A DNA stretch of 64,000 nucleotides from Comamonadaceae bacterium ALPHA2B (GTDB lineage Bacteria > Pseudomonadota > Gammaproteobacteria > Burkholderiales > Burkholderiaceae_C), in assembly GCA_005503065.1 (NCBI GenBank), contig SCOE01000006.1:124001-188000 (forward strand), written 5' to 3'. The stretch's first letter is position 1; each line of letters opens with the position of its first letter. Under the pieces are notes generated by a model that worked only from the letters and a program-made list of their open reading frames with translations, searched no databases and had not been told where the DNA came from. This document shows positions 5,636 to 54,124 of this stretch, piece after piece. The translations under genes were made by a program, and so were the position numbers.

Positions 5636-5651
5636 ATTGGTTGAGCCAAAT
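5636..5651. promoter_or_regulatory. Operator site 1, imperfect TGGT-N3-ACCA palindrome
   Basis: ATTGGTTGAGCCAAAT is an imperfect inverted repeat just upstream of the Rieske gene and next to a perfect copy. The two centres are about 14 bases apart, which allows side-by-side binding of two dimers. Confidence 0.6.
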
Positions 5652-5665
5652 TGGTAGAACCAATT
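5649..5665. promoter_or_regulatory. Operator site 2, perfect TGGT-N3-ACCA palindrome
   Basis: AATTGGTAGAACCAATT has two perfect seven-base arms around three bases. It is the best copy of the repeated motif in the window and overlaps the predicted -10 of the Rieske promoter, as expected for a repressor site. Confidence 0.85.
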
Positions 5666-5690
5666 CTACGAAGCTCGCAGATCACGTCAA
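5663..5690 (-). promoter_or_regulatory. Predicted sigma70 promoter of the Rieske operon
   Basis: Reading leftward, TTGACG (5690-5685) and TAGAAT (5668-5663) are separated by 16 bases. Each matches the sigma70 consensus at five of six positions. The -10 overlaps operator site 2. Confidence 0.55.
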
Positions 5691-5760
5691 GCACCACGGC
5701 ATGGGGTGCGCGCAGGAAGACGAGCGCCACGCACCGCCGTTGCCGGGCGCGGATCCCGGA

Positions 5761-7458
5761 TCAGGGGATGCCGCCGCGAGCCACTGCGCTTGCATGCAGC
5801 GCGATGCGGTAGGCCTGCGCCATGCCGGGGCCGAGCGTCGTGCCGGGCCCGGGATAGTGGCCCCGCATCAATGAGGCCGCATCGTTGCCACAGGCATAGA
5901 GCCCCTCGATGGGGCGGCCATGGGCGTCGAGCACGCAGCCCTGGGCGTCGGTGGCCAGTCCGGCACTCGATGCTGCGTCCCCGGGCCAGACCGCCATGGC
6001 GGCGTAGGGGCCCGGGCCGACAGGCCCGACGCAGGGGTTCGGCGCATGGCCGGGGGCGCCGTTGAAGCGGTCGAACACCGAATCGCCCTTGTGGAAATCC
6101 GGATCCTTGCCGAGGCGGGCCCAATGGTCGTAGCGCTGCACGGTGTCGGCCAGCGCGGCGGCCGGCAGTTCCAGCGATCGCGCGAGGTCGTCGAGTGTCC
6201 GAGCCACCACCAGCGCGCGGCGCTCCACCCAGGGCCGCAGGTCGCGCGTGCCCGGCGCAATGGCGCCCAGCCCGTGACGCCGGATGAAGGCGGTACTGCA
6301 CACCAGCCAGGCCGGCACGGCGCCAGCGCGCACCATGCCCTCGACGAAATGGTGGTACGAGGCCGCCTCGTCCACGAAGCGACGGCCCTGCCGGTCCAGG
6401 GCGATCAGGCCGGGCTTGGCGCGATCCAGGAACAGGTGAGGAAAGAGCCCGGTCGATCCGTCCTTGCGATGCACCACCGATGACGGCTGCCAGAGGAAGG
6501 GCCGCTCCAGGCCCGCCAGCGCAGCGCCTGCCGCGCGGGCAGCGCCCAGGCCATCGCCACGCACCGCCTCGGCGGCCAGCGCGAGCATGGTCGGCCCGTG
6601 CGGGGCGAGGAAATGCCGCAGCGCCGCGTCGTGGCCCACGCCGCCCGTGGCCAGCACCACGCCCAGACGTGCGCGAAGCACCTGGGTCCGACCCAGCGCC
6701 TCCACGCTCGCACCCATCACGCGCCCATCTTCGACCTCGAGGCCGCGCAGCCGCGCGCCGAAGCGCAACTCGACGCCGGCCAGACGCAGGCTGTGGAGCA
6801 GGCGCCCCACGAGCGCGTTGCCCATCACCCATCGGGCTCCGCGCGGATGGCGGACGCGCTCGCGGGCGTGGCGCAGCACCAGCCGTGCGCTGTGGACGAA
6901 TGCCTGCCACGAGCGATAGCGGCCGACCAGCGCCGCGATGTCGGCCTTGCCGACCATCATGCCGCCCAACACCATGAACTCGGCCAGGGGTGGGCGCACG
7001 CGGCCGAAGTCGGCGCCCAGCAGCCGCCCATCGAAGGGCAGGGGAGAGACTGCCCGGCCCCGCACCGCGGCGCCGGGCAGGTGTGGGAGGTAGTCCGGAT
7101 GCATGCCGGCACTGGCGAACCTGACCGCCGTGCGCGCCTCGAGGTACGCCAGCATCGCTGGCCCGCCCGAGAGAAAGGCCTCGCGCCGGCCATCGTGGTC
7201 GGTCTCGCCGATCAGTGCGTCGAGGTAGGTGCGTGCGGCGTCCACCGTGTCGCCATGGCCCGCGGCGACGCCGTGCGGATTGCCCGGGATCCACAGCGTG
7301 CCGGCCGAGGTGGCGGTGGTGCCGCCCACCTGCTGCGTGGCCTCGCACAGCACCACGCGCAAGCCCTCCAGTGCAGCCACGAGCGCGGCCGTCATGCCTG
7401 CGGCACCGGCGCCGATCACCAGCAGGTCCGCGTCCGTCTCAGGGATGTCCAGGGTCAT
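5761..7458 (-). CDS. KstD-like FAD-binding dehydrogenase (copy 1)
   Basis: This 565-residue flavoprotein belongs to the fumarate reductase/3-ketosteroid delta-1-dehydrogenase family. It has the dinucleotide motif VIGAGAAGMTAALVA at residues 15-29 and the GGTTATSAGTLWIP segment that follows the FAD site, and it ends with a GLYACGND motif typical of the flavin C-terminal region. In KstD the segment GDLGT follows a catalytic tyrosine; here it reads PYAAMAVWPGDAASSAGL, so the tyrosine and glycine context is partly kept. A role in desaturating a ring or acyl chain next to a carbonyl is likely. It is probably transcribed alone, diverging from the CoA-transferase gene around a shared operator. Confidence 0.85.
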   Translation of the reverse strand: MTLDIPETDADLLVIGAGAAGMTAALVAALEGLRVVLCEATQQVGGTTATSAGTLWIPGNPHGVAAGHGDTVDAARTYLDALIGETDHDGRREAFLSGGPAMLAYLEARTAVRFASAGMHPDYLPHLPGAAVRGRAVSPLPFDGRLLGADFGRVRPPLAEFMVLGGMMVGKADIAALVGRYRSWQAFVHSARLVLRHARERVRHPRGARWVMGNALVGRLLHSLRLAGVELRFGARLRGLEVEDGRVMGASVEALGRTQVLRARLGVVLATGGVGHDAALRHFLAPHGPTMLALAAEAVRGDGLGAARAAGAALAGLERPFLWQPSSVVHRKDGSTGLFPHLFLDRAKPGLIALDRQGRRFVDEAASYHHFVEGMVRAGAVPAWLVCSTAFIRRHGLGAIAPGTRDLRPWVERRALVVARTLDDLARSLELPAAALADTVQRYDHWARLGKDPDFHKGDSVFDRFNGAPGHAPNPCVGPVGPGPYAAMAVWPGDAASSAGLATDAQGCVLDAHGRPIEGLYACGNDAASLMRGHYPGPGTTLGPGMAQAYRIALHASAVARGGIP

Positions 7459-7490: not shown

Positions 7491-7505
7491 AATGGTAGAA
7501 CCATA
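7491..7505. promoter_or_regulatory. Operator site 3 between divergent genes
   Basis: AATGGTAGAACCATA holds the perfect arms ATGGT/ACCAT. It lies in the 67-base gap between the KstD-like gene (-) and the CoA-transferase gene (+), so one bound repressor could control both. Confidence 0.8.
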
Positions 7506-7525: not shown

Positions 7526-8809
7526 GTGTTCGATCAAGCAAGAATCAACGCCTTGCCCGAGCAGCCGGTGCCCGCATCGCGCACGCCGCAGGCGCTCGAG
7601 GGCATCCGGGTGGTGGACTTCACGCACTTCGTGGCCGGGCCGCTGGCCACCATGACGCTCGCCGACTTCGGTGCCGACGTCATCAAGATCGAGGCGCCGG
7701 TCAAGGGCGAGGACTTCCGCTACTACCCGCCCATGGATCCGGAGCTGCCAGCCCAGGGCGCGCCCTACATCTGGACCAACCGCAACAAGCGCAGCATCGG
7801 CGTGGACCTCAAGTCGGAGGCCGGCCGCGAGGTCGTACGCGCGCTCATCGAGACCGCGGATGTGCTGGTGGAGAACTTCTCCACTGGCGTGATGGAGCGC
7901 TTCGGCTTCGACTACGAGCGCTGCGCGCAGATGAACCCGAAGCTCATCTATTGCTCGGTGTCGGCCTATGGCCGCTCCGGTCCCCATGCGGACCGGCTGG
8001 GCTTCGACCCCATCGCGCAGGCCGAGAGCGGCTTCATCTCGATGAACGGCTACGCCGACCGCCAGGGCGTGCGCAGCGGCGCCGCGGTGATGGACGTGGC
8101 CACCGCCATGTCCGCGACCAACGCGATCCTGCTGGCGCTGATGGCGCGCACCCGCGACGGCAAGGGCCAGTTCGTGGAGGTCGCTCTGTTCGATACGGCC
8201 GTGCTGATGACCGGCTTCGGCGCCATGCAGCACCTGACCACCGGCTACGAGCCGCAGCGCAACGGCAACACCAGTCCGGACACCTGCCCGTCGGGCGTCT
8301 TCCAGTGCCAGGACATGCCCTTCTACATCAACTGTGGCAACGACGGCATATTCGTGCGGCTGTTCGAGCAGGTGCTGGAGCGGCCCGACATCGCCCACGA
8401 CCCTGTACTGTCCAAGCGCGCCAATCGGCTGCAGCAGCGCGAGTACCTGTTCGACATCATGCAGGCGGAATTCGGCAAGCATCCCTGGCGCCACTGGCAA
8501 CCGCGCCTGCGCGCCGCCGGCGTGCCTTCGGGCGAAGTGCGCACCCTGGCGCAGGCACTGGCCTCGGAGGAGGCACGCGACCGCCAGCTGGTCACGCGCA
8601 TCCCGCATCCGGTGAAGGGTTGGGTGCCCAACGTCGCGACGCCGTTGCGACTGTCGCGCACACCCGCCGTGGTGGAGCGGGCGGCGCCGGCCGTGGGCGC
8701 CGACACCGAGGCCGTGCTCGCGGACGCGCTGGGCATGGACGAACAGCGCATCGAGGCGCTGCGCATGGCCGGCGCCTTCGGCGCACCTGCCCTGGTGGCC
8801 CAGCCATGA
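7526..8809 (+). CDS. Class III (CaiB/BaiF family) acyl-CoA transferase
   Basis: The 427-residue protein begins with the family opening GIRVVDFTHFVAGPLATMTLAD and contains the conserved catalytic aspartate in AAVMDVATA (Asp190). Class III transferases move CoA between carboxylates; substrates include formate/oxalate, carnitine, succinate/benzylsuccinate and bile acids. Here it could activate the acid substrate at no ATP cost, or recycle CoA from a product. The start is a GTG at 7526 preceded by a purine-rich GAGGACGG. It leads a (+) unit with the thiolase-like/DUF35 pair and an acyl-CoA dehydrogenase. A racemase role is less likely, because a true racemase relative is encoded at 48559-49692. 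Confidence 0.88.
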   Translation: MFDQARINALPEQPVPASRTPQALEGIRVVDFTHFVAGPLATMTLADFGADVIKIEAPVKGEDFRYYPPMDPELPAQGAPYIWTNRNKRSIGVDLKSEAGREVVRALIETADVLVENFSTGVMERFGFDYERCAQMNPKLIYCSVSAYGRSGPHADRLGFDPIAQAESGFISMNGYADRQGVRSGAAVMDVATAMSATNAILLALMARTRDGKGQFVEVALFDTAVLMTGFGAMQHLTTGYEPQRNGNTSPDTCPSGVFQCQDMPFYINCGNDGIFVRLFEQVLERPDIAHDPVLSKRANRLQQREYLFDIMQAEFGKHPWRHWQPRLRAAGVPSGEVRTLAQALASEEARDRQLVTRIPHPVKGWVPNVATPLRLSRTPAVVERAAPAVGADTEAVLADALGMDEQRIEALRMAGAFGAPALVAQP

Positions 8810-8867
8810 GCGCGCCGGGCCGCTCCCGGGCGCGAATGCCCGACCGCCTTGCGCGGAGGGTAGTCCC

Positions 8868-10061
8868 GTGAGTCGCGCCGTCGCCATCGTCGGCGCGAGC
8901 GCCATTCCCGTCGGCCGTCACCAGACTGCCGACGACGCGGCGCTGCAGACGCTGGAGCACGAGATCATGACCCGCCTGGTGGTCGAGGCCGTGCGCGACG
9001 CCGGCGTCGACAAGCGGGACATCCATAGCCTCGTCTTCACGCTGCCGCGGCCCTACACGCGGCAGAAGTACTTCCACACCTTCCTGATGGGCCAGCTGCG
9101 GCTGGCCTGCCGTGGCAACGTGATGGAGGTGATGGGCAACGGCATGACCGCGGCGCTGGCCTTCGACCAGGCCTGCAACGACATCCTGCTGGGCCGGGCC
9201 GACGTGGCGCTGGCGCTGGGCATCAACATGGAAAGCGCGGTGTCCGCCACCGAGCACATGATGAGCAGCATGCGCACCACCGGCGATGTGGACTTCCACA
9301 CCTCGGCCGGCTTCACGCCCATCGCCTGGTACGCCATGGACGCCATGCGCTACATGCACGAGCATGGTGCGACGCGCGAGCAGATCGCGGCGGTGGCGGT
9401 CAAGAACCGGCACCATGCCTCGCTCAATCCGCTGGCCCAGTTCCGCAAGCCGATCACGCTGGACGAGGTGGTCGCGCAGCGGCCCATCGTCGAGCCGCTG
9501 GGGCTGTACGAGGTGCCGCCGCGCGGTGACGGGGCGGCCTGTCTGGTGCTGGCCAGCGAGGAAGTGGCCAAGTCGCTGGGCCGACCCTACGTGCTCGTGC
9601 GCGGCCGCGGCTTCTGCCACGACGGATCGCACCAGATCAGCGATGTGCCCAACGACATGATCGGCTTCACGGCTGCGCGCCAGGCCGCGCAGGATGCGTA
9701 CCGGCAGGCGGGCATCGGCCCGGAGCAACTCGATCTGGCCGAGCTCTATGCCCCCTGCACGATCGTGGAGGTGCTGGTGAGCGAGGCCATCGGCCTGCTG
9801 CCGCGCGGGCAGGGCGCGCACGCGGCAGCCGAAGGCCAGACGCGGCTCGGCGGGCGCATTCCCATCTCGACTTCAGGCGGCCTCACCTCCCGCGGGCATC
9901 CGGCCTATGTGACCTCGCTCTACAACTATGTCGAACTGGCCGAGCAGCTGCGCGGCCGGGCCGGCGAGCGGCAGGTGAAGAACGCGCGCTTCGGCCTGGC
10001 CACGGGCGAACTGGGCAACTACAACGCCGCCCTCATCCATGTCATGGAGGCCGTGCAATGA
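8868..10061 (+). CDS. Thiolase-like protein, SCP-x/Ltp type, without active-site cysteines (pair 2)
   Basis: This 397-residue thiolase-fold protein has a GTG start. The nucleophilic cysteine region of thiolases reads EVMGNGMTAAL (about residues 87-97) and has no cysteine, and the C-terminal cysteine box reads GLATGELGNYNAAL, also without cysteine. The GGLTSRGHP histidine motif is kept. This pattern fits the side-chain-cleaving aldolase Ltp2, which reuses the thiolase fold for retro-aldol cleavage, better than a real thiolase. The downstream DUF35 gene overlaps its stop by four bases, matching the Ltp2-DUF35 complex. A retro-aldolase releasing a small acyl-CoA or aldehyde is therefore inferred. 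Confidence 0.82.
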   Translation: MSRAVAIVGASAIPVGRHQTADDAALQTLEHEIMTRLVVEAVRDAGVDKRDIHSLVFTLPRPYTRQKYFHTFLMGQLRLACRGNVMEVMGNGMTAALAFDQACNDILLGRADVALALGINMESAVSATEHMMSSMRTTGDVDFHTSAGFTPIAWYAMDAMRYMHEHGATREQIAAVAVKNRHHASLNPLAQFRKPITLDEVVAQRPIVEPLGLYEVPPRGDGAACLVLASEEVAKSLGRPYVLVRGRGFCHDGSHQISDVPNDMIGFTAARQAAQDAYRQAGIGPEQLDLAELYAPCTIVEVLVSEAIGLLPRGQGAHAAAEGQTRLGGRIPISTSGGLTSRGHPAYVTSLYNYVELAEQLRGRAGERQVKNARFGLATGELGNYNAALIHVMEAVQ

Positions 10062-10489
10062 CGCAGCCGCTGCCCCAGCTCTCCGTTGCCGAGGACCGGG
10101 CCTATCCGCCACGGGAATCCGAGTTCACGACCACGTTCTGGCAGGCGCTGCGCGACGGCCGCTGGATGAGCACGCGCTGCAACGCCTGCGCGCGCCAGAC
10201 CTTTCCGCCCAAGCCGGTGTGCCCGCATTGCTGGTCCACCGACGTGGCGTGGGCGCCGCTGGGGCGCACCGGCACGCTCTATTCCTGGACGCGCATCCAC
10301 GCCGCGCCCGCGGTGTTCGCGCCCGAAGCGCCCTATGCCTGCGGCATCGTCGACCTCGACGACGGCCTGCGCCTGGCCTGCCGCCTGGTCGAGGACCCGC
10401 TGCGACCGCTGGCCATCGGCCAGGCCATGGAAATGGTGGTGCTGCAGTACCGGGACGGTCCGCTGTTCGCAGCGCGTCCGGCCGGCTGA
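10058..10489 (+). CDS. DUF35 OB-fold/zinc-ribbon protein, partner of pair 2
   Basis: The 143-residue protein has the CNAC and CPHC zinc-ribbon pairs (about residues 41-57) followed by an OB-fold region beginning GTLYSWTRIH. The ATG lies in an ATGA overlap with the thiolase-like gene. The presumed function is the acyl-CoA-binding and structural partner of that protein. An acyl-CoA dehydrogenase gene follows after a gap of 49 bases. Confidence 0.85.
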   Translation: MTQPLPQLSVAEDRAYPPRESEFTTTFWQALRDGRWMSTRCNACARQTFPPKPVCPHCWSTDVAWAPLGRTGTLYSWTRIHAAPAVFAPEAPYACGIVDLDDGLRLACRLVEDPLRPLAIGQAMEMVVLQYRDGPLFAARPAG

Positions 10490-10538
10490 GCACGGCCGTC
10501 ATCTTCACCACCATCCCGTACACAGGAGAAAGAAAGCC

Positions 10539-11699
10539 ATGAGCTTGTTCAACACCACCGGCCTCACCGACGACCAGCGCATGATGCGCGAGGGCGTGCT
10601 CGACCTGCTGGGCCGCCACTTGCCCTGGGAGAAGATCCGGAAGATGGACGAGGCCCGCGAGTTTCCGCTCGAGGCCTACGAAGCGCTGGCCGACGCCGGC
10701 TACATCGGCTTGTTCTATCCCGAAGAGCTGGGTGGCAGCGGCGGCTCCTACCGCGACATCGCCATCTTCCTGGAGGCCATGGGCTACCACTACACCGGCA
10801 TCGCCCAGGCCATCACCACCTCGGCGGTGTACGCGGGCATGCACATCGCCAAGTTCGGCTCGCCGGAGATGAAGAAGGACCTGGTACCGCGCATCATCGC
10901 GGGCAAGGCCAAGTTGGCCCTGTGCATGTCGGAGCCAGGCACCGGTTCGGACGTGGCCGGCGTCAAGACTTTCGCCGAGCGCAGGGGCGACGACTACATC
11001 CTCAACGGCAACAAGGTGTGGATCACCTGCGGCCATGTGGCGGACTACTTCGTCGTCATCACCCGCACCGACCGCGACGGCGCCAACCGCCACCAGGGCA
11101 TCAGCACGCTGCTGGTCGATGCCAAGACGCCTGGCGTGACGGTGCGGCCGCTGCAGATGCTGGGCCGCCGCACTTCGCACGCCAACGAGGTGTTCTTCGA
11201 GAACGTGCGCGTGCCGGCGCAGAACCTCTTCGGCGGGGAAGGCCGTGCCTGGAAGAACATCATGAGCTGCCTGGGCCTGGAGCGGCTGGGGCTGGCCGCC
11301 ATCTCGGCCGGCCACTGCTTCAAGATCACCGAGTACGCCCGCGACTACGCCAAGGACCGCGTGCAGTTCGGCCAGCCGATCTCGCAGTTCCAGGTGATCC
11401 AGCACAAACTGGCCGACATGCTGATCCTGTCGGAGACGGCGCGCCAGATGGTCTACCGCGCGGCCGACGTGCTGGACTCGGGGACACCCGCGGTGACGGA
11501 GGCCTCGATTGCCAAGATCGTCGCCACCGACAACAACTTCAAGTGCGCCGACATCGGCATGCAGATCATGGGTGGCGCGGGTTATTCGATGGAATACGAC
11601 ATGCAGATGTTCTTCCGCGACTCGCGCGTGGGACCCATCGGCGGCGGCACCAACGAGATCCAGCGCAACATCCTGGCCAAGCAGATGGACCTGGGCTGA
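10539..11699 (+). CDS. Acyl-CoA dehydrogenase, isovaleryl-type catalytic Glu
   Basis: The 386-residue protein has the family segments MSEPGTGSD (130-138), the NGNKVWIT flavin-loop region and a C-terminal GGGTNEIQRNILAKQM. The medium-chain catalytic Glu position near the C-terminus is Gly here, but Glu248 in GLERLGLAA is placed like the catalytic base of isovaleryl-CoA dehydrogenase, which suggests a branched substrate. It oxidises an acyl-CoA to the 2-enoyl-CoA and passes electrons to ETF. The ATG at 10539 has a good AGGAGA ribosome site; the frame is open further upstream but without a comparable start. It ends the CoA-transferase unit and is followed by a terminator. Confidence 0.9.
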   Translation: MSLFNTTGLTDDQRMMREGVLDLLGRHLPWEKIRKMDEAREFPLEAYEALADAGYIGLFYPEELGGSGGSYRDIAIFLEAMGYHYTGIAQAITTSAVYAGMHIAKFGSPEMKKDLVPRIIAGKAKLALCMSEPGTGSDVAGVKTFAERRGDDYILNGNKVWITCGHVADYFVVITRTDRDGANRHQGISTLLVDAKTPGVTVRPLQMLGRRTSHANEVFFENVRVPAQNLFGGEGRAWKNIMSCLGLERLGLAAISAGHCFKITEYARDYAKDRVQFGQPISQFQVIQHKLADMLILSETARQMVYRAADVLDSGTPAVTEASIAKIVATDNNFKCADIGMQIMGGAGYSMEYDMQMFFRDSRVGPIGGGTNEIQRNILAKQMDLG

Positions 11700-11818: not shown

Positions 11819-11836
11819 ATTGGTTGAACCATAATT
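11819..11836. promoter_or_regulatory. Operator site 4 upstream of the first acyl-CoA ligase
   Basis: ATTGGTTGAACCATAATT is identical over 18 bases to site 5. Its right arm runs into CATAAT, a possible -10 for the ligase gene. No good -35 was found at 16-18 bases. Confidence 0.8.
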
Positions 11837-11939: not shown

Positions 11940-13484
11940 ATGACCCATCCCCGACTAGCCGCGAGCCGTCATCCGGACAAGGCGGCCGTCATCATGGCCG
12001 GCACCGGTGCCGTGCTCAGCTATCGTGCGCTGGCCGCGCGTGCCAACCAGGGGGCGCACCTGCTGCGGGCCCTCGGACTTCGGCCGGGCGATCACATCGC
12101 CGTGCTGATGGAGAACAACATTCGCTTCTACGAGGTCTACTGGGCCGCGATGAGTGCGGGGCTGTACTTCACGCCCATCAGCACGCACCTGAGTCCGGCC
12201 GAGGCGGCCTACATCGTCAACGACTGCGGGGCGACGGCTCTGGTGTCCTCGGCCGCCATGCGGGCGGTGGCGCAGCAGCTGCCCGCGCTGTGTCCGGGTG
12301 TGGCGCATTGCCTGGCGGTGGACGCCCCCTTCGGCGGCTTCGCGCTTTGGGAGGAGGCGGCAGGCACGCATCCCGACACGCCTATCCCGGACGAGGTGGG
12401 CGGGCACAACATGCTGTATTCCTCGGGCACCACGGGGCAGCCCAAGGGCATCAAGGTGCCCTTCGCCAACAATCCGATCGAGGCCATGGTGCCGATCATG
12501 GCGACGTTCGCGCGCAGGATGGGCTTCGACGGCGACACGATCTACCTGTCGCCGGCACCGCTCTACCACGCCGCCCCGCTGGGCTTCAGCGCGACGGTGC
12601 AGCGCATGGGCGGCACCGTGGTGGTGATGGAGAAGTTCGATCCCGAGGGCTTTCTTGCCGCCGTGCAGCGCTTTCGCGTGACGCACACGCAGGTGGTGCC
12701 GACCATGTTCGTGCGCATGCTCAAGCTGCCGGCCGAGGTTCGGGCGTCGTACGACGTGTCGTCGCTGCGCTGCGCCCTGCATGCGGCGGCGCCGTGCCCG
12801 GTGGACGTCAAGCAGCAGATGATCGACTGGTGGGGGCCCTGCATCGTCGAGCAGTACAGCGGCTCGGAAGGCTCGGGCTGCACCTTCATCACGTCCGAGG
12901 AATGGCTGTCGCACCGCGGCTCGGTCGGCAGGTCGCTGCTCAACACCATCCGCATCGTGGATGACGATGGCCGGCTGCTGCCCCCGGGTGAGCCCGGCAC
13001 CGTTTACTTCGAAGGCAGCCGCCGCTTCGTCTACCACAACGACCCGGGCAAGACCGAGGGCGTGTTCAACGCGCAGGGATGGTCCACCCTGGGTGATGTG
13101 GGCTACCTGGACGAAGACGGCTACCTTTACCTCACGGACCGCAAGGCCTACATGATCATCTCGGGCGGGGTGAACATCTATCCGCAGGAGGCCGAGGGCG
13201 TGTTGACGATGCACCCCAAGGTGGTGGACGTGGCCGTGTTCGGCGTGCCCAATGCCGACTTCGGCGAGGAGGTGAAGGCCGTGGTGCAGCCGGTGGACAT
13301 GGACCAGGCGGGTCCCGAGCTGGAGGCGGAGCTGCTGGCCTACTGCCGCTCGCGCCTGGCCGCGCTCAAGTGTCCGCGCAGCATCGACTTCGAGGCCCAG
13401 ATGCCGCGCCAGGACAACGGCAAGCTCTACAAGCGTCTCCTGCGAGACCGCTACTGGGCCGGCCGCAGCAGCCGCATCGTCTGA
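11940..13484 (+). CDS. AMP-dependent acyl-CoA ligase (copy 1)
   Basis: From the chosen ATG the protein has 514 residues. It carries the phosphate loop YSSGTTGQPKGIK, the adenine motif region EQYSGSEG, the hinge area LTDRKAYMIISGGVNIYPQE and the C-terminal lysine motif DNGKLYKR, so all parts of the adenylate-forming fold are present. It activates a carboxylic acid with ATP and CoA, and the acid is not known. The frame is open 35 codons further upstream, but those codons overlap the operator-promoter region. It is transcribed from its own operator-bearing promoter; a decayed oxidoreductase fragment follows. Confidence 0.9.
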   Translation: MTHPRLAASRHPDKAAVIMAGTGAVLSYRALAARANQGAHLLRALGLRPGDHIAVLMENNIRFYEVYWAAMSAGLYFTPISTHLSPAEAAYIVNDCGATALVSSAAMRAVAQQLPALCPGVAHCLAVDAPFGGFALWEEAAGTHPDTPIPDEVGGHNMLYSSGTTGQPKGIKVPFANNPIEAMVPIMATFARRMGFDGDTIYLSPAPLYHAAPLGFSATVQRMGGTVVVMEKFDPEGFLAAVQRFRVTHTQVVPTMFVRMLKLPAEVRASYDVSSLRCALHAAAPCPVDVKQQMIDWWGPCIVEQYSGSEGSGCTFITSEEWLSHRGSVGRSLLNTIRIVDDDGRLLPPGEPGTVYFEGSRRFVYHNDPGKTEGVFNAQGWSTLGDVGYLDEDGYLYLTDRKAYMIISGGVNIYPQEAEGVLTMHPKVVDVAVFGVPNADFGEEVKAVVQPVDMDQAGPELEAELLAYCRSRLAALKCPRSIDFEAQMPRQDNGKLYKRLLRDRYWAGRSSRIV

Positions 13485-13747: not shown

Positions 13748-13777
13748 TTGCCACCAAAAATTGGTTGAACCATAATT
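13748..13777 (+). promoter_or_regulatory. Promoter with embedded operator site 5
   Basis: TTGCCA (13748-13753) and CATAAT (13771-13776) are spaced by 17 bases and each match sigma70 at five of six. The palindrome ATTGGTTGAACCATAATT (13760-13777) fills the spacer and -10, so a bound protein would block polymerase. It drives the gene set from 13822 rightward. Confidence 0.8.
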
Positions 13778-13821: not shown

Positions 13822-14985
13822 ATGGATCTGGAGTTCACACCGGCGCAGCGCGCCTTCCGTGCCGAGGTACGGGCCTTCATCGACGAGCGGCTGCCGGCGG
13901 ACATCCGCGCGCGCCTGCGCGCCGGCCACCCGCCGCGCAAGCAGGACACCGTGACCTGGCAGCGCATACTGAACGAACGCGGCTGGGCCGCGCCGCACTG
14001 GCCCGCGCGGTATGGTGGGGCCGAGCTGGGGCAGATGGAGCGCCTGATCCTCATGGACGAGCTCTATCGCGCACCGGCACCGCTGCCGCAGGTGTTCAAC
14101 CTCACCATGCTTGGGCCGGTGCTGATGAAGTTCGGTACGCCGGCGCAGTGCGACCATTTCCTGCCGCGGCTCGCCAACCTCGACCTGTGGTTCTGCCAGG
14201 GCTTCTCGGAGCCGGGTGCCGGCTCGGACCTGGCTTCGCTGCGCACCCGGGCCGAACGGCGGGGCGATCACTACGTGGTCAACGGACAGAAGATCTGGAC
14301 CACCACCGCGCACCTCGCCGACTGGGTCTTCGCGCTGGTGCGCACCGATCCCGAGGCCCGCAAGCAGGCCGGCATCTCCTTCCTGCTGATCGACCTGAAG
14401 TCGCCCGGCATCACCATCCGCCCCATCCGCTCGATCGACGGTGGCCATCATCTCAACGAAGTCTTCTTCGACGACGTGCAGGTGCCCGTGGCCAACCTGG
14501 TCGGCGAGGAGAACAGGGGCTGGGAATGCGCCAAGTTCCTCCTCGGCAACGAGCGCACCGGCATCGCGAACGTGGGGCTGTGCCGCGAGCGGCTGGATCT
14601 GGCACGCGAGATCGCGGGCCGTGTGCTGCCGCAGGGCGGCCGGCTGATCGACGATGCCGGACTGCGTGCGGAAATGGCGGTGCTGGACGCGGAGATCCGC
14701 GCGCTCGAGCTGACCAACTACCGCTTCCTGCTCACTCCGTCCGAGCAGCATGCGCTGCCGGCCTTCGCCTCGGTGCTCAAGCTCAAGGGCGTGGCGCTGC
14801 AGCAGGCGGTGAGCGCGCTGCTGGCGCGACTCGCGGGCCCGGCCGGCCTGGAGCGGCGCGACGGCGACGACGAGCTCGTGCACGGCCCGCTGGTGCCGCG
14901 CTACTTCTACTCGCGTGCCGCCAGCATCTATGGCGGCACCAGCGAGGTGCAGAAGGACATTCTGGCCAAGGCCATCCTGGGATGA
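13822..14985 (+). CDS. Acyl-CoA dehydrogenase, catalytic subunit of a pair
   Basis: The 387-residue protein shows FSEPGAGSD (128-136), VNGQKIWTT and the C-terminal IYGGTSEVQKDILAK. Glu244 in LGNERTGIA sits where isovaleryl-type enzymes keep their base. The next gene encodes a second, more divergent dehydrogenase without that residue. Adjacent unequal pairs of this kind form alpha2beta2 enzymes in steroid side-chain degradation (FadE/ChsE type), and the same is inferred here. The ATG at 13822 follows a GAGAGGA ribosome site; the frame is open upstream through the operator, which is not expected to be coding. Confidence 0.9.
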   Translation: MDLEFTPAQRAFRAEVRAFIDERLPADIRARLRAGHPPRKQDTVTWQRILNERGWAAPHWPARYGGAELGQMERLILMDELYRAPAPLPQVFNLTMLGPVLMKFGTPAQCDHFLPRLANLDLWFCQGFSEPGAGSDLASLRTRAERRGDHYVVNGQKIWTTTAHLADWVFALVRTDPEARKQAGISFLLIDLKSPGITIRPIRSIDGGHHLNEVFFDDVQVPVANLVGEENRGWECAKFLLGNERTGIANVGLCRERLDLAREIAGRVLPQGGRLIDDAGLRAEMAVLDAEIRALELTNYRFLLTPSEQHALPAFASVLKLKGVALQQAVSALLARLAGPAGLERRDGDDELVHGPLVPRYFYSRAASIYGGTSEVQKDILAKAILG

Positions 14986-14998
14986 GGCAGGGAATCCG

Positions 14999-16138: not shown

Positions 16139-16198
16139 CGGGCACCGATTCTCCAAGCAGCGTCAGACAACGAGAGACAACGAGCGGACGAGACAGCC

Positions 16199-27284: not shown

Positions 27285-27288
27285 GATG

Positions 27289-40575: not shown

Positions 40576-40590
40576 AAAGGTTCTACCATT
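40576..40590. promoter_or_regulatory. Operator site 12 upstream of the reductase operon
   Basis: AAAGGTTCTACCATT is an ATGGT-AGA-ACCAT type site read on the other strand, with one mismatched arm base. An AT-rich TTTAAA stretch lies next to it. Confidence 0.65.
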
Positions 40591-40785: not shown

Positions 40786-41831
<1,046 letters not shown>

Positions 41832-48558: not shown

Positions 48559-49692
48559 TCAGGCGACGCCGGTGCTGCGCAGGGCCGCGATCTGCATGTC
48601 TCCGTAGCCGAGTTCGCGCAGGATCGCCTCGGTGTCCGCGCCTGCGGCCACGGGCGCGCGCGGCCGCTCGGGCGTCGAACGACTGAAGCGCGGGGCGGGT
48701 GTCGGCTGCGTCAGGCCGTCCTGCGTGTAGAAGGCGCCGCGGGCCATCTGGTGCGGATGGGCGGGCACCTCGTCCAGGGCCAGCACGGGCGCGAAGCACA
48801 CGTCCGTTCCTTCGAGCAGTGCGCACCATTCGTCGCGCGTCTTCAGCGCGAATCGGCGTGCCAGCTCGGTCTTGAGCGCCGGCCAGCGGCTGGCGTCGTG
48901 CTGCGGCCAGGCCGCAGCGTCCTCGATGCCCAGCTTCTCGAGCAGCAGGGCGTAGAACTGCGGCTCGATGCTCCCCAGCGAGATCCATCCGCCGTCGGCG
49001 CAGCGGTAGCTGCCGTAGAAGTGGCTGCCGCCGTCCAGCACGCCGGTGCCGCGCGGTTTGGTGCGGCCGGCGGCCTGCGTGCTGTGGAACAGCGTCATGA
49101 GCAGCGACACGCCGTCGACCATGGCCGCGTCGACCACCTGGCCCTTGCCGCTGGCGCGGGCCTCGAACAGCGCGCAGGCGATGCCGAAGGCCAGCAGCAT
49201 GGTGCCGCCGCCGTAGTCGCCCACCAGGTTGAGCGGCGTCACCGGTGCCTCGGGCGTTCCGATCATGCCCAGCGCGCCGGCGAGGGCGATGTAGTTGATG
49301 TCGTGGCCCGCCGCCGCGGCGAGCGGCCCCTGCTGGCCCCAGCCGGTCATGCGGCCGTAGACCAGCCGCGCATTGCGCGCCAGGCAGGTGTCGGGTCCCA
49401 GACCCAGCCGCTCCATCACTCCCGGGCGGAAACCCTCCACGAGCACGTCGGCGCCATCGATCAGCCGCAGCAGCACCTCGTGCGCGGCGTCCTGCTTGAT
49501 GTCCAGCGCGATGGAGCGCCGGCCGCGGCGCGAGATGTCCCGCTGCGGCGGCACCATCCCGCCGACGCCCGCGCCGGGCCGCTCGATGCGGATCACCTCC
49601 GCGCCCATGTCGGCCAGCAGCATGGCGGCCAGCGGTCCGGGGCCGATCGAGGCGATCTCGATCACGCGTACGCCGTGAAGCGGGCCGGCCAT
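48559..49692 (-). CDS. Alpha-methylacyl-CoA racemase
   Basis: The 377-residue class III CoA-transferase-fold protein carries the racemase signature: His130 in GHDINYIALAGALG and Asp159 in VGDYGGGTM, which match the catalytic His126/Asp156 pair of the mycobacterial enzyme MCR. VYGRMTGWGQQGP before them is also typical. It interconverts the R and S forms of 2-methylacyl-CoAs, so the substrate of the island probably bears a methyl branch next to the carboxylate at some stage. It has its own operator and ends head-to-head with the kinase gene. Confidence 0.92.
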   Translation of the reverse strand: MAGPLHGVRVIEIASIGPGPLAAMLLADMGAEVIRIERPGAGVGGMVPPQRDISRRGRRSIALDIKQDAAHEVLLRLIDGADVLVEGFRPGVMERLGLGPDTCLARNARLVYGRMTGWGQQGPLAAAAGHDINYIALAGALGMIGTPEAPVTPLNLVGDYGGGTMLLAFGIACALFEARASGKGQVVDAAMVDGVSLLMTLFHSTQAAGRTKPRGTGVLDGGSHFYGSYRCADGGWISLGSIEPQFYALLLEKLGIEDAAAWPQHDASRWPALKTELARRFALKTRDEWCALLEGTDVCFAPVLALDEVPAHPHQMARGAFYTQDGLTQPTPAPRFSRSTPERPRAPVAAGADTEAILRELGYGDMQIAALRSTGVA

Positions 49693-49768: not shown

Positions 49769-49784
49769 AATGGTTGTACCAATG
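49769..49784. promoter_or_regulatory. Operator site 14 upstream of the racemase gene
   Basis: AATGGTTGTACCAATG contains ATGGT-TGT-ACCAA, 77 bases before the racemase ATG. Confidence 0.78.
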
Positions 49785-49898: not shown

Positions 49899-50669
49899 TC
49901 AGCGGCCCCGCCAGACCGGCGGCCGCTTCTCGAAGAAGGCGCGCAGGCCTTCGGCCAGGTCCTCGCTGCCGCGGATGCGCGCCAGCGCCGCTTCGGTCGC
50001 CTGCCAGCCTGCTGCGTCGGCGGCAGCCAGCAGGCCGTTCATGGCTTCCAGGCAGGCTTGCACCGAAAGTGGCGCATTGATGGCGATCTGCGCGGCCAGA
50101 GCGCGTGCATCGGTTTGCGCCTGGCCTGGCTCGCTCAGCCGGTTCACCAGGCCCAGCGCGTGGGCGCGGGTCGCGTCGATGGGCTGGCCGGTCAGCACCA
50201 GCTCGCGGGCGATGGCGGGCGGCAGCGCCTGCAGCATGCGGAACAGCGCACCGCAGGTCGGCAGGACCCCGCGCTGCACCTCGGGCAGGCCAAGGCGCGC
50301 ATCGCGGGCCGCGACCACCATGTCGCAGGCCAGCGCGATCTCCAGCCCCCCGCCGAGCGCCAGCCCCTCGATGGCGGCGATCAGGGGCTTGCGCCGCCGC
50401 CGACGGATGAGGCCGTATTCACCGCCGCGGGTCGTCACGTAGTCGCCCTTCGCCGCCAGGTCGCTGCCTGCGCAGAACACCGACGGGCCGCCGTCGAGCA
50501 CGCCCGCCCGCAGCGCGGGGTCGTCGTCCAGCATGTTCAGGGCCGCGTCCAGGGCATCGGCCATGGCACGGTCTACGGCATTGCGTTTGGCTGAACGGTC
50601 GAGCGTGATGCAGAGCACCGCGTCATCGCGGGCCACGCGGACGCCGCCGCGGCGGTCGGGTACGGCCAT
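49899..50669 (-). CDS. Enoyl-CoA hydratase, canonical
   Basis: The 256-residue crotonase-fold protein keeps both catalytic glutamates, in GGGLEIALACD and LGLPEVQRGVLPTCG, so hydration of a 2-enoyl-CoA is expected. VFCAGSDLAAKGDY forms the first oxyanion-hole part. It lies ten bases after the quinone oxidoreductase gene in a two-gene (-) unit. The ATG at 50669 was chosen; the open frame continues upstream but into the neighbouring gene. Confidence 0.9.
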   Translation of the reverse strand: MAVPDRRGGVRVARDDAVLCITLDRSAKRNAVDRAMADALDAALNMLDDDPALRAGVLDGGPSVFCAGSDLAAKGDYVTTRGGEYGLIRRRRRKPLIAAIEGLALGGGLEIALACDMVVAARDARLGLPEVQRGVLPTCGALFRMLQALPPAIARELVLTGQPIDATRAHALGLVNRLSEPGQAQTDARALAAQIAINAPLSVQACLEAMNGLLAAADAAGWQATEAALARIRGSEDLAEGLRAFFEKRPPVWRGR

Positions 50670-50679
50670 GGGGCGAGCC

Positions 50680-51651
50680 TCAGAAGGTGATGACGACGCG
50701 GCCCACGCCCTCGCGCTCCTGCGCGAGCGCGGCCGCCTCATCGAAGCGCTCGACCGGCAGCACCTGTCGCACCAGGGGCCGCACCCGCCCTTCTGCGAAC
50801 CAGCCGACGCATTCGCGCAGCAGGGCCGCCGCACGCGCGGGCTCGCGCTCGCCGAACTGACGTACGTCCACCCCCACGAGGGCGGCGCCCTTGACGATGG
50901 CCAGGTTGGTCTTGAGGGCGCCGATCTCGCCGCCCGCAAAGCCCACCATCAGGTGCCGGCCGCCCCAGCCCAGGGTGCGGAAGGCCGCATCGGTGGCCGG
51001 CCCGCCCACGGGGTCGAACACGACGTCGACGCCGCCCGGACCGGCCAGGCGCTTGACCTGCTCCTTCCAGTCGCCGCCGCCGTCGATCACCGCATCGGCG
51101 CCGGCGTCGCGCGCTGCCGCGCGCTTGGCTTCGCTCGAGGCCAGGGCCAGCACGCGCGCACCGAGCGCCCGGCCGATCTGCACCGCCGCATGCCCGACGG
51201 CACCGGCGGCGCCCAGCACGAGCAGGGTGTCGCCGGCCTTCAGTGCACCGCGTTCGCGCAGGCCGTACAGGGCGGTATAGGCCGAGGCGCTCGCGACGGC
51301 AGCCAGCGCCGGATCGATGCCGGCGGGCAGGGCCTGCACGCGCGCGGCCGGCACGCAGATGTACTCGGCCCAGGCGCCCTGGCGCGTGCCGCACACCGGG
51401 TCGCCCGGCGCCAGCCGGGTGTCCGTGCCCGTGCCGACGGCATCGACAACACCGCTGTACTCGCTGCCGGGCACGAAGGGCGGCGGCGGGCGCACCTGGT
51501 AGGCCCCGCGCGCGAGCAGCAGGTCGACGTAGGAGATACCGCAGGCCTGCACCCGAATCCGCACCTCGCCCGGCGCAGGTTCGGGGCGGGGCAGGGTCTG
51601 GAGGGTGATGTGGTCGTCGGGGCCGTAGCCGGGAACCTGCAGGGCTCTCAT
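50680..51651 (-). CDS. Quinone oxidoreductase-like MDR protein
   Basis: The 323-residue zinc-free MDR has the opening MRALQVPGYGPDDHITLQTL, PFVPGSEYSGVV and the nucleotide motif VLGAAGAVGHAAVQIGRALGA. The role is NADPH-dependent reduction of an enone, quinone or enoyl group. It heads a two-gene unit with the hydratase and diverges from the Bug gene around an operator. The ATG at 51651 was preferred over one eight codons upstream because family proteins start at this methionine. Confidence 0.88.
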   Translation of the reverse strand: MRALQVPGYGPDDHITLQTLPRPEPAPGEVRIRVQACGISYVDLLLARGAYQVRPPPPFVPGSEYSGVVDAVGTGTDTRLAPGDPVCGTRQGAWAEYICVPAARVQALPAGIDPALAAVASASAYTALYGLRERGALKAGDTLLVLGAAGAVGHAAVQIGRALGARVLALASSEAKRAAARDAGADAVIDGGGDWKEQVKRLAGPGGVDVVFDPVGGPATDAAFRTLGWGGRHLMVGFAGGEIGALKTNLAIVKGAALVGVDVRQFGEREPARAAALLRECVGWFAEGRVRPLVRQVLPVERFDEAAALAQEREGVGRVVITF

Positions 51652-51731: not shown

Positions 51732-51746
51732 TATGGTTGAACCTAT
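51732..51746. promoter_or_regulatory. Operator site 15 between divergent genes
   Basis: TATGGTTGAACCTAT contains ATGGT-TGA-ACCTA, one base off the core. It lies between the quinone oxidoreductase gene (-) and Bug copy 4 (+). Confidence 0.72.
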
Positions 51747-51821: not shown

Positions 51822-52793
51822 ATGCCCATTTCGCGCCGCCAGACCCTGGCCCTGCTCGGCACCGCCCCTTTCGCCGCAGGTGTGCGGGCCGAGGGGAAGT
51901 TCCCCGACCGCCCCATCAAGCTGATCGTTCCCTACCCACCCGGCGGGCAGACCGATGCCGTCGCGCGGATGTTTGCGCAGAAGGCGGAGGGACTGCTGGG
52001 CCAGCCCATGGTGGTCGACAACCGGCCTGGTGCGAATTCGATGATCGGCAGCGAGGCCGTGGCCCGTTCGCCCGCCGACGGCTACACGCTGCTGTTCAAC
52101 ATGACGGCGCTGGTGACCAATCCGCTGCTGCTGCCGCAGGTGAACTACGACCCTTTCCGCGACTTCGTGCCGGTGGCGCGCTGCTACGAGATCACCGGCA
52201 TCTGGGCCGTGCCTCCACAGGGAGCGCGCACATTGGCCGAGTTCATGCAACGCGCGCGGGAGGCTCCCAAGCCGCTGAGCTTCGGCACCACCGGCCATGC
52301 CTCGACCTCGCACTACTTCGGCGAGATCATCTCGCGTGCCGGCGGCTTCAGCCTGAACCATGTGCCGTACAAGGGCGAGGCGCCGATCCTGCCCGACCTG
52401 ATGTCCGGGCGTCTGGATGCTGCCGTGGTGTCAGGCTACTCGGCCATGCAGTTCGCCGCCGACGGGCGCATCCGCGTGCTGGCCACGACCGGGTCGCAGC
52501 GCATTCCCTCGCTGCCGCAACTGCCCACCTTCCAGGAACTGGGCATCGGCGGGCTGACGGCCGAATCCTTCGCCGGCGTGTTTGCGCCCGCGAAGACGCC
52601 GCAGCCGGTGGTCGAGCGCATCGCCGATGCCTTCACCCGTGTCGGTGCAATGCCTGACGTGCGTGAGCGCATCGCGGGCTTCGGCCTGCAGCCGCCGACG
52701 CCCATCACGCCGACGCAGTTCGCCGCCGTGATGCGCAAGGCCTACGACGAGTGGGCGGCGATCAAGAGCAGCAGCGCGATCAGGCTGGAATAG
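51822..52793 (+). CDS. Bug/TctC-family periplasmic solute-binding protein (copy 4)
   Basis: The 323-residue protein has a twin-arginine-like leader (ISRRQTLALLGTAPFAAG) and the family opening FPDRPIKLIVPYPPGGQTD with the PYPPGGQTD pocket loop. HVPYKGEAPILPDLMSGRLD is the central family block. The ATG at 51822 gives a proper leader; an upstream ATG at 51765 would add 19 residues with no leader-like features. It is monocistronic. The ligand is unknown. Confidence 0.92.
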   Translation: MPISRRQTLALLGTAPFAAGVRAEGKFPDRPIKLIVPYPPGGQTDAVARMFAQKAEGLLGQPMVVDNRPGANSMIGSEAVARSPADGYTLLFNMTALVTNPLLLPQVNYDPFRDFVPVARCYEITGIWAVPPQGARTLAEFMQRAREAPKPLSFGTTGHASTSHYFGEIISRAGGFSLNHVPYKGEAPILPDLMSGRLDAAVVSGYSAMQFAADGRIRVLATTGSQRIPSLPQLPTFQELGIGGLTAESFAGVFAPAKTPQPVVERIADAFTRVGAMPDVRERIAGFGLQPPTPITPTQFAAVMRKAYDEWAAIKSSSAIRLE

Positions 52794-52837
52794 CGCCGGG
52801 CCGGGCCCGGGCCGGCCCCGGCGCAGGACGCATGGCC

Positions 52838-53995
52838 TCAGACCACGCGCTGGGCCATGTCGCGGGCGATCAGTTCCTTCATGATCTCGTTGGTGCCGGC
52901 CAGGATGCGATGCACCCGCACGTTCTGGTAGAGACGCGCAATGGGGTACTCGGTCATGTAGCCGGCGCCGCCATGCAGCTGCAGGCATTCGTCCACCACC
53001 TTGCCGCAGGCGTCGGTGACCCACCACTTGGCCATGGCGGCAGTCGCGGGCGACAGCGTGCCGGCCAGGAGCCGGTGGGCACAGTCGTCAATGAAGGCGC
53101 CCGCCAGATGGGCCTGGGTCTCGCATTCCGCCAGCCTGAAGCGGGTGTTCTGCATTTCCAGCAGCGGCTGGCCGAACACCCGCCGGCCGGCGGTGAAGCG
53201 CAGCGTCTCCTCGATGGCGCGCTCCATGCAGGCCAGGGACATCAGGGCGGTGATCAGCCGCTCCCGGGCCAGTTCCTTCATCAGCTGGCGAAAGCCCTGG
53301 CCTTCCTCGGGCCCCAGCAGGTTCTCGCAGGGCACGCGCATGCCGTCGAAGAACAGTTCGCAGGTGTCCTGCGAATGCATGCCGATCTTGTGCAGCGGCT
53401 GGCCGCGGCGCAGGCCGGTCACCTGTGCGGCCTCGACCACCAGAATCGAGACGCCGCGTGCGCCCTGCGACGGGTCGGTCTTGGCGACCACGCAGATCAG
53501 GTCGGCACTGGTGCCGTTGGTGATGTAGGTCTTGGCACCATCGACGACGTAGTGGTCGCCATCGCGCAGCGCCCGGGTACGGATGGACTGCAGGTCGCTG
53601 CCGGTGCCCGGCTCGGTCATGGCCAGCGCGCCGACCAGTTCGCCGGTCGCCATCTTCGGCAGCCAGCGGCGCTTCTGCGCTTCGCTGGCGAAGTTCTCGA
53701 TGTAGTGCGCCACGATGCCGCTGTGCAGCGAGTTGCCCAAGCCGCCGGCGATGGCGCGGGACTGCTCGGCAAAGATCACCGCCTCGTGCAGGAAGTTGCC
53801 GCCCCCGCCGCCGTACTGCTCGGCGATGCCGGGGCACAGGAGGCCGGCGGCGCCGGCCGTGTACCAGACCTCGCGGTCCACGTGCTGCTGGGCGCACCAG
53901 CGCGGCTCGTGGGGAACGAGTTCGGTGTCGTAGAAGCGGCGGGCGGCATCGCGCAGGGACTCGAGTTCCGCGTTCATCCATTGAGGTTGGTGCAT
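52838..53995 (-). CDS. Acyl-CoA dehydrogenase
   Basis: The 385-residue protein has AMTEPGTGSD (125-134), the block KTYITNGTSADL, QLHGGAGYMTEYPIARLYQNVRV and the C-terminal ILAGTNEIMKELIARD. The C-terminal Glu position of medium-chain enzymes is not kept, while Glu245 in LARERLITA fits the isovaleryl/long-chain type base. It is transcribed alone behind an operator and marks the right edge of the operator-bearing island. Met7 is an alternative start. Confidence 0.92.
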   Translation of the reverse strand: MHQPQWMNAELESLRDAARRFYDTELVPHEPRWCAQQHVDREVWYTAGAAGLLCPGIAEQYGGGGGNFLHEAVIFAEQSRAIAGGLGNSLHSGIVAHYIENFASEAQKRRWLPKMATGELVGALAMTEPGTGSDLQSIRTRALRDGDHYVVDGAKTYITNGTSADLICVVAKTDPSQGARGVSILVVEAAQVTGLRRGQPLHKIGMHSQDTCELFFDGMRVPCENLLGPEEGQGFRQLMKELARERLITALMSLACMERAIEETLRFTAGRRVFGQPLLEMQNTRFRLAECETQAHLAGAFIDDCAHRLLAGTLSPATAAMAKWWVTDACGKVVDECLQLHGGAGYMTEYPIARLYQNVRVHRILAGTNEIMKELIARDMAQRVV

Positions 53996-54108
53996 TGCAG
54001 TTCTCGGGAGGAAAAGGCATGGGTAGACAGGGCGGCCGCGCGGTCCATGGCAGATGGAGTAGCACGGTTCCGGATTGCATGGATCACATCGTCACGCCAG
54101 AAAAATCC

Positions 54109-54124
54109 AATGGTTGATCCAATT
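54109..54124. promoter_or_regulatory. Operator site 16, rightmost copy
   Basis: AATGGTTGATCCAATT contains ATGGT-TGA-TCCAA, one base off the core. It precedes the acyl-CoA dehydrogenase gene; no further copy was seen to the right. Confidence 0.7.

Follow-up and report, generated by a model that had tools for sequence, protein, structure and literature searches.

A palindromic operator nearly exclusive to a 54-kb catabolic island of Comamonadaceae bacterium ALPHA2B predicts a local FCD-GntR regulon

We analysed a 64,000-base stretch of Comamonadaceae bacterium ALPHA2B, referred to as the window (bases 124001-188000 of contig 66, in a genome of 6,000,488 bases in 91 contigs), which carries an island of catabolic genes and, between 5.6 and 54.1 kb, a palindromic operator at the heads of its operons. 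Judged from the sequence, the degradation genes of this island are likely to be induced jointly, under the control of one or two regulators encoded among them.

Gene content and operon layout

De novo calling gave 60 genes in the window, 51 of these up to 54.2 kb, and Pfam scans were run on 50 window proteins. By gene calls and Pfam, positions 53-53977 form a nearly continuous gene set for coenzyme A (CoA)-dependent catabolism, with acyl-CoA ligases, CoA-transferases, acyl-CoA dehydrogenases, hydratases and thiolases with OB-fold partners. The set also includes a Rieske oxygenase, a cytochrome P450, aldehyde and alcohol dehydrogenases and two flavin adenine dinucleotide (FAD) dehydrogenases resembling 3-ketosteroid dehydrogenase; the regulators are one of AraC type and three FCD-type GntR proteins, here called GntR-a, GntR-b and GntR-c. 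Rightward of the island lie genes for a hybrid histidine kinase and a TetR regulator, among others.

53..5602, minus strand: operon of Rieske oxygenase, GntR-a, TctC, thiolase, small protein (809-1264, outside the Pfam scan) and nitroreductase
4286..5602, minus strand: Rieske oxygenase, a 77% relative of the CH34 protein solved as 7FHR
3470..4276, minus strand: GntR-a, FCD-type GntR (Pfam), metal-ligand positions intact; part of the Rieske operon
5761..7458, minus strand: FAD-binding dehydrogenase, 3-ketosteroid-dehydrogenase-like
7526..11699, plus strand: operon of CoA-transferase III, thiolase, OB-fold protein and acyl-CoA dehydrogenase
11940..13484, plus strand: acyl-CoA ligase
13822..19187, plus strand: operon of two acyl-CoA dehydrogenases (PimC/PimD-like), acyl-CoA ligase, APH-type protein and DUF6285
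19313..20257, plus strand: TctC-type binding protein
20790..23539, minus strand: TctC-type binding protein and second FAD-binding dehydrogenase
23677..24156, minus strand: MaoC-type hydratase
24331..28464, minus strand: operon of thiolase, OB-fold protein, enoyl-CoA hydratase, GntR-c and GntR-b
24331..25089, minus strand: GntR-b, FCD-type GntR regulator (Pfam GntR and FCD)
25176..26000, minus strand: GntR-c, FCD-type GntR paralog (Pfam), same operon as GntR-b
28638..34182, plus strand: operon of SDR, DUF7064/7065, enoyl-CoA hydratase, MaoC, quinone oxidoreductase and enoyl-CoA hydratase
34245..36480, minus strand: AraC-type regulator and zinc alcohol dehydrogenase
36653..40399, minus strand: operon of ferredoxin-type reductase, aldehyde dehydrogenase and cytochrome P450
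40860..48483, plus strand: operon of nitronate-monooxygenase-like protein, thiolase, FadB/FadJ-like protein, SDR, acyl-CoA dehydrogenase and APH-type protein
48559..49692, minus strand: CoA-transferase III
49899..51651, minus strand: enoyl-CoA hydratase and quinone oxidoreductase
51822..52793, plus strand: TctC-type binding protein
52838..53977, minus strand: acyl-CoA dehydrogenase, final gene of the pool common to relatives

TctC-type binding proteins are encoded at four places (2496-3473, 19313-20257, 22565-23539 and 51822-52793), and no TctA or TctB membrane subunit turned up among the 50 Pfam-scanned window proteins.

A palindromic operator heads the operons

Exact TGGTN3ACCA occurs ten times in the window, where shuffled sequence gives an expectation of 0.28. 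One mismatch adds 16 places, six of which (5638, 23577, 24195, 40578, 51734 and 54111) are promoter-placed and fit an extended motif; the other ten, low-scoring and in nine cases within called genes, were dropped. A symmetrised 17-column weight matrix was built from the 16 promoter-placed sites, which score 20.0-27.8 bits with it and 18.0-27.4 when each is left out in turn. The matrix adds a seventeenth site at 26001 (16.6 bits, two mismatches), and the best remaining place in the window scores only 9.6. A second matrix, made from 51 sites found in relatives, again puts these 17 at the top (17.1-29.4 bits, then 6.7), a ranking that is not independent since those 51 sites were selected with the window matrix. 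The consensus is the palindrome wwTGGTTSAACCAww, with AGA as second common centre.

5638..5648: operator TGGTTGAGCCA, 21.7 bits; paired with the next, 14 base pairs (bp) start to start; heads the Rieske operon
5652..5662: operator TGGTAGAACCA, 27.1 bits; after a TAGAAT -10-like hexamer
7493..7503: operator TGGTAGAACCA, 23.9 bits; between divergent FAD-dehydrogenase and CoA-transferase genes
11821..11831: operator TGGTTGAACCA, 27.0 bits; precedes acyl-CoA ligase
13762..13772: operator TGGTTGAACCA, 27.8 bits; precedes the acyl-CoA dehydrogenase pair operon
19266..19276: operator TGGTTCAACCA, 26.4 bits; precedes a TctC gene
23577..23587: operator TGGTTGGTCCA, 20.0 bits; precedes the TctC / FAD-dehydrogenase operon
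24195..24205: operator TGGTAGAGCCA, 20.8 bits; precedes the MaoC gene
26001..26011: weak operator TGGATGAACCT, 16.6 bits (17.1 with the relatives' matrix); adjoins the GntR-c start codon
28509..28519: operator TGGTTCAACCA, 27.5 bits; heads the thiolase-GntR-c-GntR-b operon
28606..28616: operator TGGTTCAACCA, 27.5 bits; heads the SDR/enoyl-CoA hydratase operon
36562..36572: operator TGGTAGAACCA, 20.7 bits; precedes AraC-type regulator / alcohol dehydrogenase
40578..40588: operator AGGTTCTACCA, 23.4 bits; precedes the Fer2 reductase / aldehyde dehydrogenase / P450 operon
40814..40824: operator TGGTTGAACCA, 27.5 bits; precedes the nitronate-monooxygenase-like / thiolase / FadB operon
49771..49781: operator TGGTTGTACCA, 25.7 bits; precedes CoA-transferase 2
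51734..51744: operator TGGTTGAACCT, 23.8 bits; between divergent quinone-oxidoreductase and TctC genes
54111..54121: operator TGGTTGATCCA, 25.1 bits; precedes acyl-CoA dehydrogenase; right-most site

All 17 operators are intergenic, and at least one stands at the head of each of the nine strand blocks formed by the called genes up to 54.2 kb. A preceding gap of at least 40 bp is found at 30 gene starts; the gap holds an operator at 18 of these, and the 12 gaps that lack one (47-132 bp) all lie between same-strand genes. The first-pass annotation of this DNA had proposed a palindromic operator dispersed over 5.6-54.1 kb in about sixteen TGGT-N3-ACCA copies. The dispersed set is confirmed, and more strongly than claimed; the count becomes 17, with only ten perfect TGGTN3ACCA copies among them.

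The paired operators at 5638 and 5652 are both alignable in four congeners, and cooperative binding there is possible. A candidate eighteenth site at 11838 (TGGTTGCATCA, 17 bp from 11821), one of the ten dropped one-mismatch places, scores 7.0 bits, a background level, and was excluded. The gene of the AraC-type regulator (35398-36480) is itself preceded by an operator, a possible second control tier.

The operator is nearly confined to the island

Pattern searches indicate that in its own genome the operator is near-exclusive to the island. With at most one mismatch, the 15-base pattern WWTGGTWSWACCAWW occurs at 15 places genome-wide, every one between window bases 5636 and 54123, and the reversed-pattern control at one; the similar density elsewhere that the first-pass annotation had named as its counter-case is thus not seen. 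The matrix scan found no place above 13 bits in the 20-kb flanks on both sides. Allowing up to two mismatches gives 39 places versus 18 for the reversed control, and 24 of the 39 have exactly two mismatches, one of these being in the island. Exact TGGTN3ACCA is found at 30 places, ten of them in the window, about 1% of the genome, and TGGTWSAACCA with one mismatch is at control level genome-wide (116 forward and 98 reverse, versus 135 and 133).

These counts largely contradict the reading that the repeats are the general FCD-GntR consensus, arising by chance in AT-rich intergenic DNA and enriched here by the many promoters, and we give it almost no weight. TKGT/ACMA is indeed the core of the FadR subfamily (an excerpt of PMC6608401, citing Suvorova 2015), the genome encodes 33 FCD proteins, and some AT-richer family genomes have many matches, though similar numbers for the control. 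However, the other 99% of the genome holds no WWTGGTWSWACCAWW place with 0-1 mismatch, the flanks are empty above 13 bits, and genus mates without GntR-b have 0-1 matches.

Related islands share genes and operator in different order

Close relatives of GntR-b and of GntR-c are rare, each found in six of 150 family genomes at E 1e-40, own genome included. Five more distant islands were compared. All eight operator matches of genome G122 lie within 51 kb, as do 12 of 13 within 57 kb on the Cupriavidus metallidurans CH34 megaplasmid, at about 2.233-2.290 Mb, 10 of 10 within 53 kb on the Variovorax PDNC026 megaplasmid and 8 of 8 within 29 kb on that of Variovorax VAI-C (for these three the search covered the megaplasmid records); in Piscinibacter sakaiensis 13 of 14 are on contigs C43, C64 and C66, each with island genes. 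The reversed control gave 0 or 1 in each genome or megaplasmid. Relatives of island genes were sought by tblastn, keeping the best-matching window protein per place, which is not a reciprocal orthology test; 47 of the 51 genes up to 54.2 kb have such a relative, at 51-92% identity, in at least one of the five islands. The nine genes right of 54.3 kb all stay below 50% identity there. Operon order differs between the five islands, and the operators stay between operons.

The 17 sites and five congeners make 85 possible pairs of site and genome. Alignments running through the site were obtained for 44 of them, all from four congeners (44 of 68) and none from G158, and they cover 13 of the 17 sites. 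Core identity in these 44 pairs is 0.98 versus 0.77 in the flanks, a comparison that favours conserved cores since it counts only blastn alignments running through a site; the outer TGG and CCA equal the own base in 44 of 44. Site 26001 is identical in the four congeners aligned there, but its flank is likewise well conserved. Matches in the congeners are mostly, not always, clustered, and several of the assemblies are fragmented.

Many copies in a single short region, with operons shuffled between relatives, might also be expected of a mobile or structural element such as a dispersed repeat or recombination site. We hold this to be highly improbable: the sites have in common only the palindrome and its A/T flanks, with neighbouring bases varying from site to site; the flanks drift between congeners but the core does not; and placement tracks operon heads and -10-like hexamers.

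GntR-b and GntR-c are the candidate regulators

The earlier assignment of the operator to the FadR/FCD-GntR type holds, as its half sites fit TKGT...ACMA (in the excerpted text of PMC6608401). So does that of the three regulators to this family: the N-terminal GntR winged helix-turn-helix (PF00392) and the C-terminal FCD domain (PF07729) are above the Pfam cut-off in GntR-a, -b and -c, a make-up shared with FadR, PdhR, NanR and LldR. Only two of the three, not all as stated, lie strictly inside 5.6-54.1 kb; GntR-a lies to the left of that interval, in an operon that has the first two operators at its head. Among the NCBIfam models listed, none of those named FadR, PdhR, NanR or LldR reaches its cut-off; the best scores, 103-111, are with the NanR model, whose cut-off is 260, the others listed being lower. 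Among solved structures GntR-b best matches CGL2915, NanR and a GntR of Streptococcus agalactiae; chains named PdhR and those of FadR come further down. A predicted structure of GntR-b (predicted TM-score, pTM, 0.64) hits FCD structures with query TM-scores of 0.38-0.51 among the 50 matches listed; a model of such middling quality confirms the family only.

GntR-b co-occurs with operator matches. In the genus (15 genomes, own included), seven genomes encode a GntR-b relative at E 1e-60 and carry 6-15 matches (control 1-2); the other eight carry 0-1 (control 0-3), a complete separation with a one-sided rank probability of 1/6435 if shared ancestry is ignored. Besides the own genome the holders' GntR-b proteins are 95-96% identical in four and 53-55% in two. 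Across the 150 family genomes the greatest excesses over control are 15/1, 14/1 and 8/0, in the own genome, G053 (taken to be P. sakaiensis 201-F6) and G122, which are the genomes with close relatives of both GntR-b and GntR-c; the next best excess, by eye, is 5. We also fetched GntR-b loci, the best 80 of 534 named. A site of at least 24 bits is carried by 15 of the 25 loci whose GntR-b relative is at least 50% identical, versus none of the 55 below 50%, a set that includes low-GC genomes; column-shuffled matrices found on average 0.11 and never more than 6 of the same 25 loci. L091, L092, L095 and L108 have a site 80-113 bp ahead of the point where the match to GntR-b starts, and no GntR-c relative is found in the fetched flank.

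It is very unlikely, in our assessment, that GntR-a is the operator-binding protein and that GntR-b and -c serve otherwise. GntR-a does belong to the FCD-GntR proteins, its recognition helix is similar, it is encoded behind the operators at 5638 and 5652, and it was found in five of the eight operator-bearing genomes searched. At E 1e-30, however, nothing in the whole genomes of G122, G151 and G158 matches it, and operator matches there number 8, 6 and 10, respectively. On these grounds it was set aside as binder and seems dispensable for keeping operators, and the equal weight given to all three regulators in the first-pass annotation is not sustained, the more so as GntR-a retains metal-ligand positions (see below). 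Its relatives at G153:C5:300664-301419 and G161:C191:786-1541 each have one in-frame TGA within the match, and the gene may be decaying in these two genomes.

Given this co-occurrence with matches and the absence of GntR-a, we regard GntR-b as the first candidate for the protein that binds the operator, and GntR-c, about 39% identical to it, as a second candidate and likely its partner. GntR-c may be optional, because most of the shorter loci show no relative of it in the fetched flank.

Another arrangement is that GntR-b and GntR-c split the sites and answer different ligands, giving two signals, for example for an upper and a lower pathway. We think this somewhat unlikely, while allowing it appreciable weight. 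Both paralogs are kept in all five distant islands and in five congeners, the site centres vary between TTS and AGA types, and mycobacterial cholesterol use is placed under two regulators, KstR and KstR2, in an excerpt of PMC3068626; yet the two kinds of centre score as a single class and are mixed over operons, and by eye the sites showed no division according to gene function.

Proposed regulon and mode of action

We consider it quite probable that the island is a self-contained local regulon under an FCD-GntR dimer, GntR-b and probably GntR-c, that represses the operons until an inducer is present. A FadR-type GntR dimer (GntR-b, probably also GntR-c) would bind the TGGTTSAACCA palindrome with its A/T flanks and block RNA polymerase at every operon, the regulators' own included. 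A pathway intermediate, most likely an acyl-CoA, would then free the dimer from DNA so that all operons are induced together, and the outcome would be the CoA-thioester catabolism of a cyclic acid (alicyclic, terpenoid- or steroid-like). What the sequence shows is the sites and where they lie, their near-confinement to the island, their conservation and their co-occurrence with GntR-b. Common control of the operons is well supported as a prediction; that the island is a single pathway we infer, as we do the binding and the repression themselves, the occupation of sites by GntR-c as well, and both ligand and substrate.

The block to RNA polymerase is proposed because the palindrome overlaps or adjoins a -10-like hexamer at most promoters: in 17 of 19 leaders such a hexamer lies at most 12 bp from the first base of the operator, versus 6.2 (standard deviation 1.9) in shuffled flanks, by a loose criterion (4 of 6) that A/T flanks favour. 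As this geometry resembles that of KstR, repression is the likely mode of action. Operators at the head of the regulators' own operon (28509) and, weakly, at the GntR-c start (26001) suggest autoregulation.

The effector can be guessed at from the FCD domains. The zinc ligands of NanR are D172, H176, H222 and H244 (an excerpt of PMC8012715). By alignment GntR-a keeps all four positions as Asp/His/His/His, and most are lost in the other two regulators, GntR-b having H or N, H, R and S, and GntR-c V or I, Y, R and H; this sets GntR-b and -c apart from the metal-site FCD proteins. A 49% relative of GntR-b, in locus L061, retains the fourth His. Such a metal site is not a strict requirement of the family, as FadR, which binds acyl-CoA, is itself not known to have one. 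Because GntR-b and -c mostly lack the metal positions and the island is rich in acyl-CoA enzymes, our guess for the effector is an acyl-CoA.

Several observations weigh against the proposed regulon or parts of it. The loose hexamer criterion is one; two of the 19 leaders have no close -10-like hexamer, and a general sigma-70 scan of 5.0-24.9 kb gave two promoter-like sites, no excess over chance (1.1, standard deviation 1.1). Proteins of the FadR family are able to activate as well. Confinement is not strict: exact TGGTWSAACCA, taken without its A/T flanks, occurs ten times here and at two places elsewhere in the genome (C11:147402 and C40:34447), and one of the 12 matches of congener G160 lies about 134 kb away from the rest. 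Some homologous operons seem to lack the operator: no site of at least 17 bits was found ahead of the Rieske operon in CH34, and for P. sakaiensis the fetched 0.8 kb preceding this operon has none either. Ten of the 25 loci with a GntR-b relative of at least 50% identity have no site of at least 24 bits, and L099 has a 54% relative near a variant palindrome. The ten larger islands, those of the five distant relatives and five congeners, have both GntR-b and GntR-c, so that the two are inseparable there, and 17 of the 25 loci show no GntR-c relative within the fetched flank. The substrate guess, finally, consists of family names, with the telling enzymes below NCBIfam cut-offs.

More tentatively still, and on balance improbable, the operator may bind the island together as an evolving unit, with the two co-transcribed FCD paralogs, their metal sites lost, jointly reading the palindrome as a double acyl-CoA switch. 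On this view operons would be gained, lost and re-ordered between lineages and replicons, nearly every operon of the pool having the same palindrome, and a newcomer gene would enter the programme by acquiring the operator.

Comparison with known systems

The nearest parallel is the KstR regulon of mycobacteria, described here from an excerpt of PMC1995591. There too one palindrome precedes many operons of a catabolic programme, and the KstR motif partly overlaps the putative -10, as -10-like hexamers lie near the operators here; KstR is an autoregulated repressor whose loss derepresses its targets, and its motif was found by conservation between species. In contrast to the FCD-GntR regulators of the island, KstR belongs to the TetR family and has a different palindrome, TnnAACnnGTTnnA, and its regulon has 83 genes in M. 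smegmatis, whereas here all 15 near-perfect sites fall in one 48-kb stretch. By analogy the island would thus work like the KstR regulon and is not a member of it.

Within the FCD family, few operators around a locus are known for PdhR, LldR and NanR, and the island differs from them in having more. The operator type and the regulator family are already known; the island appears to be an unusually compact, near-exclusive case of the local catabolic regulons under FadR-type GntR control. In the open literature, as far as titles and the starts of abstracts go and with subscription papers mostly uncovered, we found no account of the motif, the gene combination or the regulon.

Substrate and the Rieske oxygenase

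NCBIfam and PDB matches of the island enzymes give families only, no substrate. The pair of acyl-CoA dehydrogenases is PimC/PimD-like, and the FAD enzymes look like 3-ketosteroid and 4-oxocyclohex(an/en)ecarboxylate dehydrogenases, in both cases with NCBIfam scores below the curated cut-offs; from the PimC/PimD-like and ketosteroid-dehydrogenase-like enzymes we guess that the substrate is a cyclic acid. The Rieske protein of the homologous CH34 island, to which the window protein is 77% identical, is identical over 439 residues to PDB 7FHR, titled 'Putative Phthalate 4,5-dioxygenase, subunit alpha'; the island context, with acyl-CoA enzymes and thiolase/OB-fold pairs, is unlike phthalate degradation. 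No paper on the substrate of 7FHR was found among open-literature titles and abstract starts.

What emerges is a sequence-only prediction of one regulon of about 50 genes in a group of Burkholderiales, among them C. metallidurans CH34 and the polyethylene terephthalate (PET) degrader P. sakaiensis 201-F6, which names likely regulators and gives a context for the solved oxygenase. Because it is nearly exclusive to the island, the operator can help to delimit the pathway gene set in each relative, including genes not placeable by family, and it can help to find the inducer with a simple reporter.

Variant palindromes and other loci

Four loci of Variovorax type or from a metagenome-assembled genome (L094, L098, L099 and L103) have the variant palindrome TGGTTTGACCA or TGGTATTACCA together with GntR-b relatives of 51-56% identity, and form a natural series for specificity studies. 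Four palindromes of ATGG(T/A)N3(T/A)CCAT type (14.9-19.7 bits), with perhaps a fifth at 23261, occur at G000:C25:7582-18250 (L077) and adjoin two other FCD-GntR genes, one of them 40% identical to GntR-c; this locus is perhaps a sister regulon with a shifted operator. The outlying match of G160 (G160:C17:391838, locus L213) is a perfect 15-base match. A 15-mer with one mismatch, AATGGTAGAACCCTA, is present in at least ten family genomes (e.g. G004:C1:366345 and G128:C1:255542; also G053:C33:92365) and may be a conserved site of another kind. Locus L172, on the Delftia acidovorans plasmid NZ_CP065697.1, has a compact Rieske/CoA-transferase/thiolase module and an acyl-CoA dehydrogenase pair module; the plasmid is typed as conjugative, with IS21 and IS1071 elements close by. 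Right of the window, at about 73.0-77.8 kb in window coordinates, translated starts viewed by eye look like those of a urease operon.

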